Below, piece after piece: positions 5,475 to 39,952 of a DNA stretch of 64,000 bases (within the stretch, counting starts at the first letter, position 1; the number at the start of each line of letters is the position of its first letter). Position numbers and translations under genes: made by a program. Below the pieces are notes generated by a model. That model ran no database searches and was not told the origin of the DNA. It was given only the letters and a program-made list of their open reading frames with translations. Location of the stretch: the NCBI GenBank assembly GCA_902786855.1, contig CADAEH010000008.1:1-64000 (forward strand), given 5' to 3'. This DNA comes from an uncultured Eubacteriales bacterium (GTDB taxonomy: Bacteria; Bacillota; Clostridia; Peptostreptococcales; Anaerovoracaceae).

Positions 5475-6545
5475 TCACTCGTAGATCTCCCAGTGATTGG
5501 TCTCAAGTGCTTTGAGAGCTCCTTCAGCAAGAGCTTTCATCTCTTCTTCTCCAGGGAATCTCATGATCGGAGCGATCTTGCTGACATATGAGCTGATCTC
5601 TTCACAGAACCTGTCGGAATATGCCATGCCTCCGGTAAAGATGATGGCATCGACGTTGAATCTCAGTACAGCTGACATAGCTCCGATATCCTTTGCGAGC
5701 TGGTAAGCGATAGCCTTGAATGCCATCAGCATCTTCTCATCACCGTCATCGAATGCTGCATTTTCAACTACTCTGAAGTCCTTGGTCCCTGTATATGAAT
5801 AGATGCCTGCTTCCTGTCCGATTATCCTCTTGACATCAGCCTTGGTCATGCCTTCCTTGAAGCAGAGATTGACAAGTGCGTTTGCAGGAAGTGCTCCGCC
5901 TCTGTCCATACCCATAGCTCCGTCATCCTTTACATTGTTGACGTCTACTACTTTACCCTTCTTGTGAGCTGCTACGGATACTCCTCCGCCGAGGTGGCAG
6001 ATGACGAGGTTGAGTTCTTCATATGCTTTGCCAAGCTGCTTTGCTGCCTTGCGGGCAACAGACTTGTGGTTGAGTGGATGGAAGAAAGACTGTCTTTCGA
6101 ATCCCTCAAGACCGAGTCCCGAATATCTTGCAAGAGGTTCCATCTCATCTACGCAGACAGGGTCTACGAAAAATGAAGGGATGCCTACAGAATCAGCGAG
6201 TTCTTTTGAAATATATGCTCCGAGGTTTGCCGCATGCTCGCCGTAAGGAGGGTTCTTGATATCACGGATCACTGCATCATTGACTCTGTATGTTCCTGAA
6301 GGAATGTGCTTGAAAAGACCGCCTCTGCCGCATATAGCGTCAAAGTCCTCAAGGCTGTAGCCTTCCTTCTGGATAGTTTCAAGGATGGCTTCCTTCCTGA
6401 ACGGAGCCTGGTCGACGACGTGAGGGTATTTTGCTATCTCGGCCGCATCGTGGTCGATGCCTACACGCATTACTTCATTCTGATCTTCAAAAACGCAGAT
6501 CTTGGTCGAAGTAGCACCCGGGTTGATTACAAGAATTCTTTTCAT
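5475..6545 (-). CDS. buk: Butyrate kinase
   Basis: The enzyme converts butyryl phosphate and ADP to butyrate and ATP, the last step of the kinase route of butyrate fermentation; it can also act on other branched acyl phosphates. The 356-residue length and the acetokinase-fold signatures fit: NPGATSTK at 8-15, the phosphate-binding HLGGGVSVAAH, DRGGALPAN and FTGGMAYS. The start follows AAAGGAG. The usual partner, phosphotransbutyrylase (ptb), is not next to it, so the acyl phosphate must come from a gene elsewhere. A terminator follows directly and a TATAAT lies about 65 bp upstream, so it looks monocistronic. Confidence 0.95.
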   Translation of the reverse strand: MKRILVINPGATSTKICVFEDQNEVMRVGIDHDAAEIAKYPHVVDQAPFRKEAILETIQKEGYSLEDFDAICGRGGLFKHIPSGTYRVNDAVIRDIKNPPYGEHAANLGAYISKELADSVGIPSFFVDPVCVDEMEPLARYSGLGLEGFERQSFFHPLNHKSVARKAAKQLGKAYEELNLVICHLGGGVSVAAHKKGKVVDVNNVKDDGAMGMDRGGALPANALVNLCFKEGMTKADVKRIIGQEAGIYSYTGTKDFRVVENAAFDDGDEKMLMAFKAIAYQLAKDIGAMSAVLRFNVDAIIFTGGMAYSDRFCEEISSYVSKIAPIMRFPGEEEMKALAEGALKALETNHWEIYE

Positions 6546-6638: not shown

Positions 6639-8522
6639 TTATTTGTTTCTGTTGTTGAACTTGCGGCGCTCCAGTTCTGTCAGGAGTTTTTTCCTGAGCC
6701 TGATATCTGAAGGCGTCACTTCGACAAGTTCATCATCGCTTATGAATTCGAGCGCTTCCTCAAGTGTGAACACTCTCGGAGGTGTCAGCTTGATGGTATC
6801 ATCGCTGCCTGCAGCTCTCATATTGGTAGCCTTTTTGGCTCTGCACGGATTGACAACCATGTCGTCTGTTCTGGCATTCATGCCCACGATCTGTCCCTCA
6901 TAGACATGATCCTGCGGCTTGACGAACATCTGGACTCTCTCCTGTATAGTGAAGATAGCGTAAGCAGTGCAGTGACCTTCTTCCTGTGCGACAGCCACTC
7001 CGTTGATCCTGCCCGGGATATCTCCCTTCCAAGGTTCAAATCCTTCGAATCTCCTGACCATTGTACCCTCGCCGTGGGTGTCATTGATGAACTCAGTCCT
7101 GTATCCCATCAGGCCTCTGGTAGGCGCTGTGTAGATTATCCTTGAATAGCCGTTTCCTTCCGAGTACATCTGCTTCATCATGCCCTTGCGGAGGTTGAGC
7201 TTGCTGATGACAGGTCCTGTGTATTCATCAGGTACGCTTACGACTACCTCTTCAACAGGCTCGAGCTTTTCGCCGTTTTCTCCCCTCTTGATTACGACTT
7301 CAGGTTTTGATACAGCCAGCTCGAACCCCTCTCTTCTCATATTCTCTATGAGTATAGACAGATGCAGCTCTCCTCTGCCGGATACCTTGAATGAATCCGT
7401 AGTGTCTGTTGGTTCCACCAAAAGGCCTACATTGACCTCAAGTTCTTTTTCCAGCCTGTCTTTTATGTGTCTTGAAGTCACATATTTTCCGACTTTTCCG
7501 GCAAAAGGTGATGTGTTGACCATGAAGTTCATGGAAAGTGTAGGCTCCTCTATGTGGATAGTACCGAGGGACTCAGGAACTTCAGGATCGCAGATGGTCT
7601 CGCCTATAGAGATATCAGATATACCGGAAACCACAACTATGTCTCCGCTTCTTGCTTCATTCACAGGAACTCTGCTGAGCCCTCTGTATACGAATACCTG
7701 ATTGATCTTATTCTTGCTGACAGAGCCGTCTTCTTTTGTGACAGCAACCATCTGAGCTTCCTTGATAGTGCCCCTTGTGATCCTTCCTATGCCGAGTCTT
7801 CCGATATAATCATCATATGCGAGCGTGGATACCTGAAGCTGCAGAGGCTCTGAATCTCTCGCAGGATAAGGATCACAGTGGTCGACGATGCACTGTAAGA
7901 GAGGTTCAATGTTCAGGCCTCCATATCCCTTAGGGGATTTTTTGATCTTGGTCTGACCTTCTCCGATGGTGATACCTTCGACTTCAGATGGATCGTTTAC
8001 GGCTATGCCCTGCCTTGCTATACCATAGAGTATAGGGAAATCCAGCTGGTCATCATTTGCCTCAAGATCCATGAAGAGTTCATATGTCTCATCCACCACT
8101 TCATCGATCCTCGCATCCTTTTTGTCTATCTTGTTGATAAACAGGATAGGATTGATTCCCTGCTGCAGGGATTTGTTGAGTACGAATCTGGTCTGCGGCA
8201 TCGGTCCTTCGCTTGAATCGACAAGAAGGATGACAGTATCTACCGTCTTCATAATACGCTCTACCTCAGAGCTGAAGTCCGCGTGGCCCGGAGTGTCGAC
8301 TATATTGATCTTATAGTCTTTATACATTATTGAGCAGTTCTTGGAATAGATCGTGATGCCTCTCTCTCTTTCGATGGCATCTGAGTCCATGACACAGTCA
8401 ACTACCTGCTCGTTTTCACGGAAAACGTGTGACTGAGCGAGCAGTGCATCAACCAGAGTGGACTTTCCGGCGTCTACGTGTGCAATTACTGCTATGTTTA
8501 TTATCTTTTGATTATCTGCCAT
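6639..8522 (-). CDS. typA: Translational GTPase TypA/BipA
   Basis: TypA is a ribosome-associated GTPase of the EF-G/LepA group, linked to 50S assembly and stress adaptation. The 627 residues match the family's usual length. The G domain shows AHVDAGKST at 14-22, the effector region RERGITI near 52-58, DTPGH at 76-80 and NKID at 130-133. The EF-G-like domains III and V follow, then the TypA-specific C-terminal domain with TRGLMGYRTEF and GTMVRRFEGF. The C-terminus is basic (LLTELERRKFNNRNK). It reads in the same direction as buk with a 93-bp gap that contains a possible promoter. Confidence 0.97.
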   Translation of the reverse strand: MADNQKIINIAVIAHVDAGKSTLVDALLAQSHVFRENEQVVDCVMDSDAIERERGITIYSKNCSIMYKDYKINIVDTPGHADFSSEVERIMKTVDTVILLVDSSEGPMPQTRFVLNKSLQQGINPILFINKIDKKDARIDEVVDETYELFMDLEANDDQLDFPILYGIARQGIAVNDPSEVEGITIGEGQTKIKKSPKGYGGLNIEPLLQCIVDHCDPYPARDSEPLQLQVSTLAYDDYIGRLGIGRITRGTIKEAQMVAVTKEDGSVSKNKINQVFVYRGLSRVPVNEARSGDIVVVSGISDISIGETICDPEVPESLGTIHIEEPTLSMNFMVNTSPFAGKVGKYVTSRHIKDRLEKELEVNVGLLVEPTDTTDSFKVSGRGELHLSILIENMRREGFELAVSKPEVVIKRGENGEKLEPVEEVVVSVPDEYTGPVISKLNLRKGMMKQMYSEGNGYSRIIYTAPTRGLMGYRTEFINDTHGEGTMVRRFEGFEPWKGDIPGRINGVAVAQEEGHCTAYAIFTIQERVQMFVKPQDHVYEGQIVGMNARTDDMVVNPCRAKKATNMRAAGSDDTIKLTPPRVFTLEEALEFISDDELVEVTPSDIRLRKKLLTELERRKFNNRNK

Positions 8523-17333: not shown

Positions 17334-17342
17334 GACACAAGA

Positions 17343-17450
17343 CCTCATCTGCCGGGGAATGGCTGATCCCCGTGGGAATTGGCACCTTCACCTTCTGGTG
17401 GGGTTGCCGCGAGATCACAGGGCCCATTCCCTCCCTCGCTCTTAATAAGG
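17343..17450 (-). ncRNA. SAM-I (S-box) riboswitch
   Basis: The minus strand shows the conserved S-box core: TTAAGAG, GAGGGAATGGGCCC, TGATCTCGCGGCAACC, AAGGTGCCAATTCC and AGATGAGG. P1 is formed by CCTTATT (5') with GATGAGG (3'). Binding of S-adenosylmethionine to this class stabilises the aptamer and favours the terminator at 17302-17333, reducing metK transcription. Confidence 0.96.
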
Positions 17451-17458
17451 CTGTACTA

Positions 17459-34763: not shown

Positions 34764-35312
34764 CTATATAACTATCTCTATATCAAAGTCCGACTGATAC
34801 TCCACGATCCTGCCCTCAGCTCTGGTCTTGTTCATGTCTATGACTCTCTGATTTTCAGAACCTCTGTATATCAGTGTGAGGTTACGGAGCGCCTCTACAT
34901 ATCTGCCATCTACGAGGATATCGAGCATACTGAGCAATTCGTCTGTTTCCGGGTCATTCCTCTTTTGCAGTTCTTCAAGGGTGTAGCCGGAGTAACTCAT
35001 AAGTGAAAGGCCGGCATTCCTTATCATCTTTCCAAGTTCAAGCAGCGCAGGTACCTGTTCAAATGGTTCTCCTCCGGAAAAAGTGACTCCCTGCAGATGC
35101 GGATTTTTCATGATATCTGCGAAGACCTCCTCTGTTGTCATATCGGCGCCGCCTGCCGGGTCGTGAGACTCGGGATTGTGGCATCCCGGACATCTGTGCG
35201 GACATCCCTGAACGAAAAGAACATAACGAAAACCGGGGCCGTCAACGATCGACTCTCTCTCTATACCGCATACGCGGATCACTTTATTTTCTTTTTTCAT
35301 GTCATCTTCCAT
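34764..35312 (-). CDS. nrdG: Anaerobic ribonucleoside-triphosphate reductase activating protein
   Basis: NrdG is the radical-SAM activase that places the glycyl radical on class III ribonucleotide reductase. The 182-residue chain carries the cluster motif CPHRCPGC (CX3CX2C), preceded by ESIVDGPGFRYVLFVQG, and FSGGEPFEQ downstream. An alternative ATG at 35300 would remove four residues. It lies behind an attenuator-like hairpin at 35340-35373 and just after the small glycyl-radical-domain gene, so it is probably expressed by partial readthrough at a lower level than its substrate. Confidence 0.95.
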   Translation of the reverse strand: MEDDMKKENKVIRVCGIERESIVDGPGFRYVLFVQGCPHRCPGCHNPESHDPAGGADMTTEEVFADIMKNPHLQGVTFSGGEPFEQVPALLELGKMIRNAGLSLMSYSGYTLEELQKRNDPETDELLSMLDILVDGRYVEALRNLTLIYRGSENQRVIDMNKTRAEGRIVEYQSDFDIEIVI

Positions 35313-35339: not shown

Positions 35340-35373
35340 CAAAAAAATGTGGGACAGCATGTGCCATCCCACA
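35340..35373 (-). terminator. Terminator or attenuator between the glycyl-radical-domain gene and nrdG
   Basis: On the minus strand TGTGGGA-TGGCACATGCTG-TCCCACA is followed by seven T residues and GATATT. It starts 21 bp past the stop of the 53-residue gene and only about 28 bp before nrdG; no promoter is visible between it and nrdG. Confidence 0.8.
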
Positions 35374-35393: not shown

Positions 35394-35555
35394 TTAGTTC
35401 AGGCTGTGTTTAACTCTGTCCTGGACCTCTGCTCTTTTTCCGTTATTGAATCTGTCGAGTGTGCCTACGAGATATCCTGTTATCCTTCTGATCCTCTCGA
35501 ATCCTACACCTTCTCCGACCTGTCCGTTTACATTCTTGACGACTTTGTTATTCAT
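35394..35555 (-). CDS. Free-standing glycyl radical domain of class III ribonucleotide reductase, 53 aa
   Basis: The ATG at 35555 follows ATGGAGGTACCGAG, an excellent ribosome binding site. The 53-residue product contains RIRRITGYLVGTLDRFNNG then KRAEVQDRVKH, which aligns with the extreme C-terminus of one-piece NrdD proteins (E. coli: RRVCGYLG, with the radical Gly681, then KQEEVKRRVKH). The radical glycine should be Gly27. The large subunit gene upstream (35693-37969) stops before this segment, and no frameshift joins the two: 137 bp of AT-rich noncoding DNA separates them. That gap holds a promoter (35583-35611) and NrdR-like boxes. The simplest reading is a split enzyme in which this peptide docks onto NrdD and is activated by NrdG. 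It is seen directly; function is inferred. Confidence 0.85.
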   Translation of the reverse strand: MNNKVVKNVNGQVGEGVGFERIRRITGYLVGTLDRFNNGKRAEVQDRVKHSLN

Positions 35556-35582
35556 CTCGGTACCTCCATATCGCTACCAATC

Positions 35583-35611
35583 ATTATATATTTTACCTTG
35601 GATTTTGTGAA
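35583..35611 (-). promoter_or_regulatory. Promoter of the glycyl-radical-domain gene
   Basis: On the minus strand TTCACA and TATAAT are separated by exactly 17 bp; the -10 lies 27 bp before the start codon at 35555. The -35 has one mismatch to TTGACA. Confidence 0.65.
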
Positions 35612-35650
35612 GCTATAATTGCATATATTGTTGTATCTTTTTTGCACAAA

Positions 35651-35666
35651 ACACATCATATTGTGT
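35651..35666 (-). promoter_or_regulatory. Degenerate NrdR-box-like palindrome between nrdD and the small gene
   Basis: The minus strand reads ACACAATATGATGTGT, one mismatch from the published consensus ACACWATATNTWGTGT read with a free seventh core position. A weaker match, CAATATATGC at 35621-35630, lies 33 bp away (about three turns). It is about 40 bp upstream of the -35 of the small gene. Confidence 0.5.
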
Positions 35667-35692
35667 TTTCGAAAAAACATAGTGATCTTCTG

Positions 35693-37969
35693 TCAGTGTA
35701 TGCAATCGCATGGGACCGGCACGCTAGGATACTTCATTCTCAGCTGGTTGAGTCTTTCGATCGTTACCGGCTCGCCTTCGCGTCTGCCGCATCTCGGACA
35801 TACATCATCGATGACTCCGGTATATCCGCATACAGGGTCTCTGTCTACCGGGTGATTGACTGAGCCGTAACCGATACCGACTTCTTTCATGTATCTGATT
35901 ACCGACTCGAAAGCTTCAGGATTCTTGGCTGTATCGCCGTCGAGCTCAACATAGCTGATGTGTCCTGCGTTAGTCAGATCATGGTAAGGCGCTTCGATAT
36001 CCAGTTTTTCAAATGCCCCGATCGGATAGTATACAGGAACGTGGAATGAATTGGTGTAGTAATCTCTGTCTGTGATGCCTTCAAGCTTGCCGTATTTCTC
36101 TCTGTCGATCTTGACGAATCTGCCGGAAAGGCCCTCTGCCGGAGTAGCCAGAAGCGTGAAATTGAGTCCTGTTTCTGCACTCTTTTTGTCACAGTAGTGT
36201 CTCATGTGCTTGATGACTTCGAAAGCTTTCTTTCTGACTTCTTCATCCTCTGCATGGTGCTTTCCTGTCAGAGCCTTCATTGTCTCAGCAAGTCCGATGA
36301 ATCCGATCGAAAGTGTGCCGTTCTTGAGGATCTCAGCTACGCTGTCGTCAGGACCGATATCGTCTGAGTCGATCCAGATGCCCTGTCCCATCAGGAACGG
36401 ATAGTTGCGTCCTTTCTTGGAACACTGGATGCGGAATCTGTGCAGCAGCTGTCTTGCGACAAGATCAAGCATATTGTCGAGTTTCTTATAGAAAACCTCA
36501 AAATCTCTGTTAGCCTCGATGCCGAGTCTAGGCAGGTTGATCGATGTGAACGAAAGATTTCCTCTTCCGCACACAACAGCCTTCTTAGGGTCATAGTTGT
36601 TGGCCATTACTCTTGTACGGCATCCCATGTAAGCAACTTCTGAGTTGTAGTCACCTTCTTTGTAGAATCTCTTGTTGAACGGTGCATCGAGGAAGCTGAA
36701 GTTAGGGAACAGTCTCTTGGCGCTGCATCTGACGGCCAGTTTGAACAGATCGTAGTTAGGATCACCTTCGTTGAAATTGATTCCTTCCTTGACCTTGAAG
36801 ATCGATACAGGGAAGATCGGTGTCTCACCGTTTCCGAGGCCTGCTTCTGTAGCAAGGAGGAAGTTCTTGATGACCATGCGGCCTTCAGGTGTTGTATCAG
36901 TTCCGAAGTTTACAGAGCTGAACGGTACCTGTGCGCCTGCTCTTGAATTCATGGTATTGAGGTTGTGGATGAGAGCCTCCATAGCCTGATAGGTCATCTT
37001 GTCCGTCCTGGCCCATGCAGCTTCACCTGCCTGCTCATTGCAGCGGATAAGTGTATTCTTGTCTATGCCGAATGTGTTGTCAGCATTGTCGAACCACTTT
37101 TCGAGTTCCTTGCCGTATGTCTTGGTGTTGCTGATAGTTGGCTTTACAGCCTCCGCTTTGATCTTCTCAGAGATGCCCTTTGCACTTGCATAAGGGACAT
37201 CGAGCTTTGCCGCTATGATCTCAGTAAGAGCGGAGAAATACTCCTTGATATATGTTCTTGCAACGCCAGGAGCCATTGAATAGTCAAAGTTAGGAACTGA
37301 CTGTCCGCCATGCATCTCATTCTGATTGGCCTGAATAGCGATACAGGCAAGAGATGCATAGCTCATGATCGACTGAGGCTCTCTCAGATATCCGTGGCCG
37401 GTACAGAAACCGTCCTTAAACAGCTTGATCAGGTCGATCTGGCAGCATGTCTCGGTGAGCATATAGAAGTCCTTGTCGTGGATGTGGATGTCACCGTTGA
37501 TGTGTGCTTTTGCGATATCTTTAGGAAGAACGTAATTGTCTACGAAATACTTCGCGCCCTCGGAGCCGTACTTGAGCATAGTTCCCATCGAGGTGTCTCC
37601 GTCGATGTTAGCATTCTCTCTCTTGATATCGGCATCCTTGGAATAAGAATATGTGAGTTCGTTATAGATGTTCATCAGATCGGACTCTGCCTCTCTGATC
37701 TTGGCGTGTTCAGCACGATAGAGGATGTATGCCTTGGCGGTCTTCTCATAATCGTACTTGATGAGCATCTGCTCTACGATATCCTGAACCTGCTCAACTG
37801 TGCAGGTCTCTCCGTCGAGCTTTTCGACTACTTTCTTGGTAAGGTAAGTAAAATCTATGCTGGTCATTTTCTCACCATCTACAGCCTTGTTAGCTGCATA
37901 GATGGCATTGAATATCTTGGACTCGTTGAACTTTACTTCCTTTCCGTCTCTCTTGATGATAGTATTCAT
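35693..37969 (-). CDS. nrdD: Anaerobic ribonucleoside-triphosphate reductase large subunit, lacking the C-terminal glycyl radical loop
   Basis: NrdD makes deoxynucleotides from ribonucleoside triphosphates without oxygen. The 758-residue chain starts with an ATP-cone regulatory domain (about residues 1-95, TIIKRDGKEVKFNESKIFNA), followed by the ten-stranded barrel with NGDIHIHDKDFY, TCCQIDL, GRGNLSFTSINLPRLG and FIGLAETMKAL. The tail holds a zinc-type region with CGYTG and DVCPRCG, then ends PVPCDCIH with TGA. The conserved RRxxGYLG loop with the radical glycine is absent and is found in the gene at 35394-35555. In-frame sequence beyond the TGA shows no similarity to the family, so readthrough or selenocysteine is not suggested. 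The promoter at 38099-38127 is overlapped by NrdR boxes. Confidence 0.93.
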   Translation of the reverse strand: MNTIIKRDGKEVKFNESKIFNAIYAANKAVDGEKMTSIDFTYLTKKVVEKLDGETCTVEQVQDIVEQMLIKYDYEKTAKAYILYRAEHAKIREAESDLMNIYNELTYSYSKDADIKRENANIDGDTSMGTMLKYGSEGAKYFVDNYVLPKDIAKAHINGDIHIHDKDFYMLTETCCQIDLIKLFKDGFCTGHGYLREPQSIMSYASLACIAIQANQNEMHGGQSVPNFDYSMAPGVARTYIKEYFSALTEIIAAKLDVPYASAKGISEKIKAEAVKPTISNTKTYGKELEKWFDNADNTFGIDKNTLIRCNEQAGEAAWARTDKMTYQAMEALIHNLNTMNSRAGAQVPFSSVNFGTDTTPEGRMVIKNFLLATEAGLGNGETPIFPVSIFKVKEGINFNEGDPNYDLFKLAVRCSAKRLFPNFSFLDAPFNKRFYKEGDYNSEVAYMGCRTRVMANNYDPKKAVVCGRGNLSFTSINLPRLGIEANRDFEVFYKKLDNMLDLVARQLLHRFRIQCSKKGRNYPFLMGQGIWIDSDDIGPDDSVAEILKNGTLSIGFIGLAETMKALTGKHHAEDEEVRKKAFEVIKHMRHYCDKKSAETGLNFTLLATPAEGLSGRFVKIDREKYGKLEGITDRDYYTNSFHVPVYYPIGAFEKLDIEAPYHDLTNAGHISYVELDGDTAKNPEAFESVIRYMKEVGIGYGSVNHPVDRDPVCGYTGVIDDVCPRCGRREGEPVTIERLNQLRMKYPSVPVPCDCIH

Positions 37970-38092: not shown

Positions 38093-38176
38093 CTACATAT
38101 TGTAGTCAGCGATCTGATTCATGTCAATATGTTGTAACAAAAATTAAGATTTTTCTTTTTTGACCACAAGATATAG
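38093..38176 (-). promoter_or_regulatory. nrdD promoter with three NrdR-type boxes
   Basis: The minus strand has TTGACA (38122-38127) and TACAAT (38099-38104) with a 17-bp spacer. Three sites match the NrdR core CWATATNTWG: CAATATGTAG (minus, 38093-38102, covering the -10), CAATATGTTG (plus, 38125-38134, overlapping the -35) and CTATATCTTG (minus, 38167-38176). Their centres are 32 and 42 bp apart, about three and four helical turns, so all lie on one face of the DNA. This is the arrangement expected for repression by NrdR. Confidence 0.82.
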
Positions 38177-38231
38177 TGTTTTGCTGTTTTTTCGAACAAA
38201 AACACAATTGATTTACGCATAAATAATTAGC

Positions 38232-39586: not shown

Positions 39587-39952
39587 ATGGGAAAGTATGT
39601 TGTCAAGCAGACCAAGACCGGCGTCAAGTTCGATCTGAAAGCATCCAATGGCGAGATCATCGCAAATTCAGAAGTATACACAACAAAAGCTGCCTGCATG
39701 AAGGGCATAGAAAGTGTTAAGGCCAATGCTCCTGTAGCAGCCGTTGAAGACCAGACAGTGGAAGGTTTCGAGACCTGCAAGAATCCAAAGTTTGAAGTCT
39801 ATGTAGATAAGGCCGGAGAGTTCCGTTTCCGCCTTAAAGCGAAGAATGGCCAGATCATTGCAACAGGTGAAGGCTACAAGGCTAAAAAGAGCTGCCTGAA
39901 CGGAATCGAGAGCATAAGAAAGAACGCGGATTCAGAAATCGCAGAGGAATAA
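39587..39952 (+). CDS. YegP family protein with two DUF1508 repeats
   Basis: The 121-residue protein consists of two copies of the DUF1508 module: residues 5-46 (KQTKTGVKFDLKASNGEIIA then CMKGIESVKANA) and 68-110 (FEVYVDKAGEFRFRLKAKNG then CLNGIESIRKNA). The tandem architecture is typical of YegP proteins, whose role is unknown and which are often linked to stress. No signal peptide is present. It has an AAAGGAG ribosome binding site and is its own unit between a strong -10 and a bidirectional terminator. Confidence 0.93.
   Translation: MGKYVVKQTKTGVKFDLKASNGEIIANSEVYTTKAACMKGIESVKANAPVAAVEDQTVEGFETCKNPKFEVYVDKAGEFRFRLKAKNGQIIATGEGYKAKKSCLNGIESIRKNADSEIAEE

Follow-up and report, generated by a model that had tools for sequence, protein, structure and literature searches.

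A class III ribonucleotide reductase of Clostridia whose glycyl radical loop is encoded by a gene of its own

Our analysis of a 64,000-nucleotide stretch of DNA from an uncultured Eubacteriales bacterium of the gut (contig CADAEH010000008.1, assembly GCA_902786855.1; hereafter the window) indicates that its class III ribonucleotide reductase very probably consists of two subunits, an NrdD core and a radical loop protein of 53 residues. In the literature cited here, class III reductases are described as bearing the radical in the catalytic chain. A preliminary description of the window, made from its letters alone, had proposed that its NrdD ends after the zinc region without the radical loop and that a separate 53-codon gene 137 bp downstream encodes this loop. 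Profile searches and alignment to a solved enzyme bear out both proposals, and a comparison with related loci reveals the same arrangement in many other genomes.

Results

The split nrdD locus

The two proteins of the window divide one enzyme between them. In profile searches against PF13597, the window NrdD covers model positions 1-531 of 562 (E value 2.9e-190) and the 53-residue protein positions 533-562 (E value 2.2e-8, above the gathering score). Against NF005497, NrdD reaches 1054.9 bits (cut-off 764); the small protein matches positions 711-744 of 746 and stays under the whole-protein cut-off, as expected because it is a fragment. Similarly, in phmmer alignments to the Prevotella copri enzyme (8P23), NrdD ends at residue 705 and the 53-residue protein spans residues 707-738, with Gly27 on the loop glycine; the two proteins tile 8P23 without overlap. 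The cut point lies between the zinc site, which NrdD keeps, and the radical loop, and the two genes are separated by 137 bp (35556-35692). The radical glycine of P. copri NrdD is named Gly711 in PMC11226230, and we take the four-residue offset from this numbering to reflect the 743 residues of the 8P23 chain against the 739 stated there. No match of the 53-residue protein to the Gly_radical profile PF01228 was found at E values up to 1.

The window NrdD matches the ATP cone profile PF03477 and retains the motifs NAN (flap), HIHD and MGCRTRV with the catalytic Cys450, which correspond to the NxN flap, HxHD and active-site cysteine loop in the nomenclature of PMC11226230. Its chain closes with a conserved tail, ERLNQLRMKYPSVPVPCDCIH. 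Among the hallmarks of a class III NrdD, the catalytic core with its ATP cone and a nearby NrdG are present; the radical glycine loop is absent from the NrdD chain and has its own gene. No second nrdD and no large subunit of class I or II (PF02867) was found in the window genome, a 62-contig assembly that is 87% complete; an intact second nrdD had been named in the preliminary description as a finding that would speak against the split. That description had further held that the small protein appears to be the only source of the radical glycine; this needs amending, as the genome carries a second loop gene, of 61 amino acids (aa), among conjugation genes on another contig (C45).

Conservation among related loci

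To place the locus among its relatives, we use a collection of species genomes scanned with three split NrdDs, from which the best 80 of 419 confirmed relatives were kept; two of these (L288 and L307) have no intact C-terminus, leaving 78 to be counted. The radical loop is missing from NrdD in every one of the 78, and a free-standing loop gene lies adjacent downstream in 76. These include isolates of Coprococcus, Intestinimonas and Lachnoclostridium; the record titles of the related loci include Mogibacterium, Candidatus Crickella, Coprococcus, Anaerostipes, Intestinimonas and Marasmitruncus. One of the two exceptions (L328) is a contig end. In the other, Marasmitruncus massiliensis (L326), nrdD stands alone and the loop gene is found 35 kb off, directly before an nrdG-like gene. 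In 73 of the 76 loci, the loop gene is followed downstream by a gene bearing the cysteine pattern of NrdG. Among 30 control loci with an intact NrdD, no small loop gene was present within the fetched stretch (0/30).

Behind the zinc region, the NrdD tail motif E(R/K/T)LxxL(R/Q)xx(Y/F)P is kept in 77 of the 78 relatives. A universal CxC tail was considered and rejected, as only 42 of the 78 tails have CxC at the NrdD end. The median ratio of nonsynonymous to synonymous substitution rates (dN/dS) of the loop gene is 0.014 (43 codons; 28 pairs, two of 30 being left out for lack of a finite dS), with dS values that are often close to 1 or higher. All of the 35 split-NrdD genomes searched whole, out of the 80, contain a free-standing loop. 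Twelve of them have an intact NrdD as well and 11 match PF02867, three of these weakly and in part; neither was found in 14. A genus mate of the window organism (G082, 99% complete) has one loop-less NrdD, next to which lies a loop gene, and does not match PF02867; it also has one further short PF13597 match beyond those listed. The split is a conserved architecture, with relatives on phages and conjugative elements and among spare parts, and not a single-strain oddity. In Candidatus Crickella caballi (L290), alone among the 80 loci, there are two loop genes, which flank nrdD on both sides (5575-5748 and 8275-8460).

Copies on mobile elements and in viruses

Free-standing loops also occur away from nrdD. 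The C45 gene of the window genome (L003, 1465-1650, minus strand) lies beside a TraG-D_C match, with TrbL and TrbC profiles below cut-off, and four further copies in two related genomes (Table 1) are found at the corresponding site, ahead of a TrbL-like gene. The neighbours of the copy in L345 match coupling-protein and PrgI profiles, with TrbL below cut-off, and a further loop gene (L349) has phage packaging and portal genes in its vicinity. In IMG/VR, 227 stretches have relatives of the short kind described so far and 390 have relatives of a longer kind described below, the two sets overlapping; the best 80 of each were kept, and the viral contigs with free-standing loops of either kind are within L092-L250. 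Among 163 loci read from viruses, phages and plasmids, 162 have the loop motif, which lies in a frame of less than 200 aa in 157 of them. Free loops (187 distinct) keep the fingerprint of intact ones (32 distinct), also outside the positions of the search motif. In PHROGs, the loops matched only the ends of NrdD families. A tblastn search, with matches in 23 plasmid and 6 phage records, led mostly to NrdD-annotated places of Clostridioides; in the records read, the loop lies in frames of 54 (H1), 86 (H24) and 117 aa (H25), and H2 is a full NrdD of 788 aa.

These copies might act otherwise than by supplying a host NrdD, for example as decoys of NrdG or inhibitors of NrdD. A loop that binds either protein could also inhibit it, and of 50 viral records searched whole, which may be fragments, 46 hold a loop without an NrdD. 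On the other hand, the free loops retain the radical glycine and the residues around it, and in three of these records a loop gene accompanies a loop-less NrdD (the remaining one has an intact NrdD). We consider such a function unlikely. Since the glycine is conserved and most copies have no NrdD beside them, we infer that the mobile copies serve the host enzyme. The three viral records with both a loop-less NrdD and a free loop gene are L099 (1-2465), L219 and L221.

A second form of the free-standing loop

The longer kind is a protein of about 95 aa, in which a 50-residue domain precedes the NrdD loop (for example L049, 2486-2773). The domain is strongly matched in 33 of 119 genomes of the window's family and weakly in two more, and in these genomes the protein is mostly found alongside an intact NrdD. 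In the class survey (291 genomes), the form with loop is present in four genomes of two other families. In six loci read, its neighbours are ordinary chromosomal genes by sequence resemblance. AlphaFold predicts a beta-alpha-beta-beta arrangement for the 50-residue domain, with a predicted local distance difference test (pLDDT) of 82-87 over its blocks, and Glu14 and Tyr18 are invariant in an alignment (A6) of this form. Foldseek with the model found no solved fold at an E value of 0.001 or better, the best rows having E values of 0.2 and above.

Because the ~95-aa kind accompanies intact NrdDs as a spare part would, and because mobile loop copies exist, one could regard the 53-residue protein too as nothing but a spare part that rescues in trans, and the window NrdD as a damaged, decaying copy that lost its loop recently. 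Recent decay is excluded, however, since none of the 78 relatives, which come from several families, has the loop and the tail is kept in 77 of them. Moreover, the window NrdD is otherwise full length, and no other reductase was found in 14 of the 35 genomes. This explanation is therefore improbable as a whole, and a two-subunit enzyme accounts better for the window locus.

Loss of the NrdD loop

The surveys met seven loop-less genomes in the window's family, and a free-standing loop is present in each. In three of them (G005, G077 and G083) NrdD stops at the start of the loop and an nrdG-like frame comes next, and the sequence read after NrdD contains no remnant of the loop; all three genomes match the 50-residue domain of the ~95-aa form. 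In genome G198, the NrdD match ends at 539 and the loop lies in a 100-aa frame. A tree of 76 NrdD cores, 41 of them loop-less, was built by a quick search after removal of the zinc and loop region. The main split clade consists of 36 loop-less rows and L030, and the losses of G005, G077 and G083 fall apart from one another and from this clade. Seven changes are needed, five of which are forced by starred branches; by this tree, loss of the NrdD loop arose several times.

Separate translation and expression signals

The preliminary description had credited the loop gene with a strong ribosome binding site and a promoter of its own. The former is indeed present (GGAGGT, 6 nt ahead of the ATG); as to the latter, there is a promoter-like site (Table 1), which is a consensus match only. 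Promoter-like sites in the loop-gene region number 6 against 6.6 expected, which is no excess over chance, and terminator-like sites 5 against 2.4. An NrdR-box-like pattern, for which 0.64 matches are expected in the window, has 3, two of which are one place read on either strand; as many were reached in 3 of 100 shuffles. An NrdR gene is present in all six genomes searched. Among 33 close loci, 28 have a promoter-like site ahead of the loop gene.

In the 76 loci, the distance from the NrdD stop to the loop start ranges from -44 to 227 nt (median 90), and the frame of the loop gene relative to NrdD is random (30/25/21). Ribosome sites score 5 or 6 of 6 matches in 72 of the 76 loop genes, the start having been chosen for the best ribosome site before scoring. 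These signals indicate that NrdD and the loop protein are separately translated.

A single full-length chain could in principle still arise by read-through of the stop, frameshifting, an intron or an intein. Phage nrdD genes broken by introns, inteins and endonucleases are known (PMC3653736, PMC12393476), and in 10 of the 80 loci the loop is in the next in-frame open reading frame (ORF). However, no inserted element was found between the two genes of the window, as the 137 bp contain no endonuclease ORF and the Rfam matches of the window include no intron, and random frames, variable gaps and the distant loop gene of Marasmitruncus do not fit one chain. As a general mechanism, this was rejected on account of the frames, the gaps and the missing intron, and we regard this alternative as very improbable. 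An assembly or sequencing error, which the preliminary description had also allowed for and which a genome in 62 contigs might suggest, has a negligible probability and was rejected, as the same arrangement recurs at 76 other loci in many assemblies, including those of isolates.

Table 1. Coordinates of the genes and signals around the split nrdD of the window and of loop genes in conjugation operons
Feature	Position	Strand	Remarks
nrdD, class III ribonucleotide reductase without radical loop	35693..37969	-	758 aa, ends PVPCDCIH
Free-standing glycyl radical loop gene	35394..35555	-	53 aa; radical glycine expected to be Gly27
nrdG, radical S-adenosylmethionine (SAM) activase	34764..35312	-	TIGR02491 150.3 bits, cut-off 126.1
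Promoter-like TTCACA-17-TATAAT ahead of loop gene	35583..35611	-	11/12, consensus match only
Terminator-like hairpin between loop gene and nrdG	35348..35373	-	11 pairs and T run
Promoter-like TTGACA-17-TACAAT ahead of nrdD	38099..38127	-	consensus match only
NrdR-like box ACACAATATGATGTGT upstream of loop gene	35651..35666	-	0 mismatches
NrdR-like box upstream of nrdD	38164..38179	-	1 mismatch
Short loop gene in conjugation operon, L345	2973-3170		
Short loop gene in conjugation operon, L346	2482-2739		
Short loop gene in conjugation operon, L347	1554-1745		
Short loop gene in conjugation operon, L348	2998-3156		

Elsewhere in the window there are a SAM riboswitch (17342-17451, minus strand; 85.6 bits, Rfam) and an ORF of 121 aa built of two similar halves (39587-39952, plus strand), which presumably resembles a YegP/DUF1508 protein.

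Discussion

A proposed two-subunit enzyme

The best reading of our data is an exchangeable radical subunit that would work like YfiD/GrcA but derive from NrdD. NrdD would supply the ATP cone, barrel, active-site cysteine and zinc region, and the 53-residue protein only the radical glycine loop. The small protein may dock on NrdD with the zinc region and the conserved tail helix as its landing site; NrdG would take the hydrogen from Gly27 within the docked complex, and the radical would move to Cys450. After oxygen has cleaved the loop, only the 53-residue subunit would need replacing, and copies from phages and conjugative elements would provide the same subunit to the host enzyme. We infer that NrdD depends on the small protein and that NrdG activates it. 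Beyond the window, it seems somewhat more probable than otherwise that Clostridia hold an exchangeable radical subunit passed round by mobile elements, that phages and conjugative elements bring copies of it to drive or rescue a loop-less host NrdD during replication or transfer, and that the ~95-residue form serves as another spare part, which has permitted NrdD to lose its loop repeatedly.

Several observations weigh against this proposal. In evenly drawn surveys, in which short matches are those among the matches listed, loop-less NrdDs were found in 6 of 119 genomes of the family, in 4 of 128 of the order (all four of the window's family) and in 2 of 128 of the class, one of which is the window's own. 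As such surveys find few loop-less NrdDs, the split is rare and patchy; the 80 loci were the best matches to the window NrdD among 419 and thus give no prevalence. These counts leave out genomes in which nrdD is cut by a contig end or a run of N, such as G100, G118, G001, G033, G070, G105 and G114 in the family survey, G135 and G213 in that of the order, and G312, G354 and G355 in that of the class. Furthermore, 21 of the 35 split-NrdD genomes have another candidate reductase, so the split enzyme may be dispensable there, and many of the genomes are incomplete metagenome assemblies. PF02867 matches are also present in G077, G083 and G198, with a weak partial one in G049, and G005 has a second, intact NrdD. 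In the tree, the loop-bearing NrdD L030 falls within the split clade, where it forms a long branch (support 90), and is either a re-fusion or misplaced; phage rows are long-branched, and L221, L342, L343 and L344 have no row. Among the 33 close loci, a terminator 3' of the loop gene is found in only 10 and an NrdR-like box with up to two mismatches in 14, a count without a shuffled control.

The mechanism itself faces similar points. A read-through fusion of L289, with the stop read as glycine, was folded with a mean pLDDT of 79.9, but confidence in its loop is low (block means of 69 and 76 around residues 771-790 and of 36 at 791-800). Its alignments with solved NrdDs and pyruvate formate-lyases reach through the loop end (8P23, model residues 1-817; 1MZO, 118-819), these ranges being the first and last aligned residues only. 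The model supports docking of the loop on NrdD weakly because of the low loop confidence and because the ranges give end residues only. Docking, activation and radical transfer in a two-part enzyme are predictions, and the proposed exchange of an oxygen-damaged subunit is modelled on YfiD (PMC8683613).

Comparison with known systems

We found no description of a free-standing NrdD loop in the open literature available to us, and databases may list such proteins as NrdD. If the radical carrier is a detachable second subunit, the same-chain picture of class III reductases would have to change, and it would become testable in trans how a glycyl radical is docked, activated and protected. Moreover, the viral and conjugative copies, mostly without an enzyme gene seen beside them, suggest a cheap way to influence the DNA-precursor supply of the host.

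The NrdDs of P. copri (8P23), Streptococcus thermophilus (9D3X) and phage T4 (1H7A) share the catalytic core and the sequence or fold of the loop with the window system, and the first two also its ATP cone. In all three a single chain ends in the loop, whereas in the window the loop comes from a gene of its own and the NrdD chain finishes with a separate conserved tail. Phage nrdD genes broken by introns, inteins and homing endonucleases (PMC3653736, PMC12393476) are likewise in pieces; unlike these, the window gene is cut at the loop boundary, has no insert and is predicted to be translated separately from the loop. The split class II reductase NrdJa/NrdJb is similar in being a two-chain reductase. 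In class I, the radical is held by a separate subunit, NrdB, beside NrdA (PMC2795772). A two-part class III enzyme is reminiscent of this arrangement, the likeness being a radical on a separate subunit. NrdB is a metal-containing protein of a different fold, and class I works with oxygen.

A parallel in working is offered by the spare parts that serve pyruvate formate-lyase in trans, YfiD/GrcA in Escherichia coli and Y06I in phage T4 (PMC8683613). Like the window loop, they are small free-standing glycyl radical domains, and they too can be phage-borne. YfiD is activated well only with a cleaved partner (PMC8683613). The window loop differs in having the sequence of NrdD (PF13597) and not PF01228, in its length of 53 aa against about 14 kDa, and in a partner that, unlike that of YfiD/GrcA, has no loop of its own. 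According to the same paper, only two spare parts of pyruvate formate-lyase have been validated and others may exist; our findings bear on the question raised there of whether glycyl radical enzymes beyond pyruvate formate-lyase have spare parts as well.

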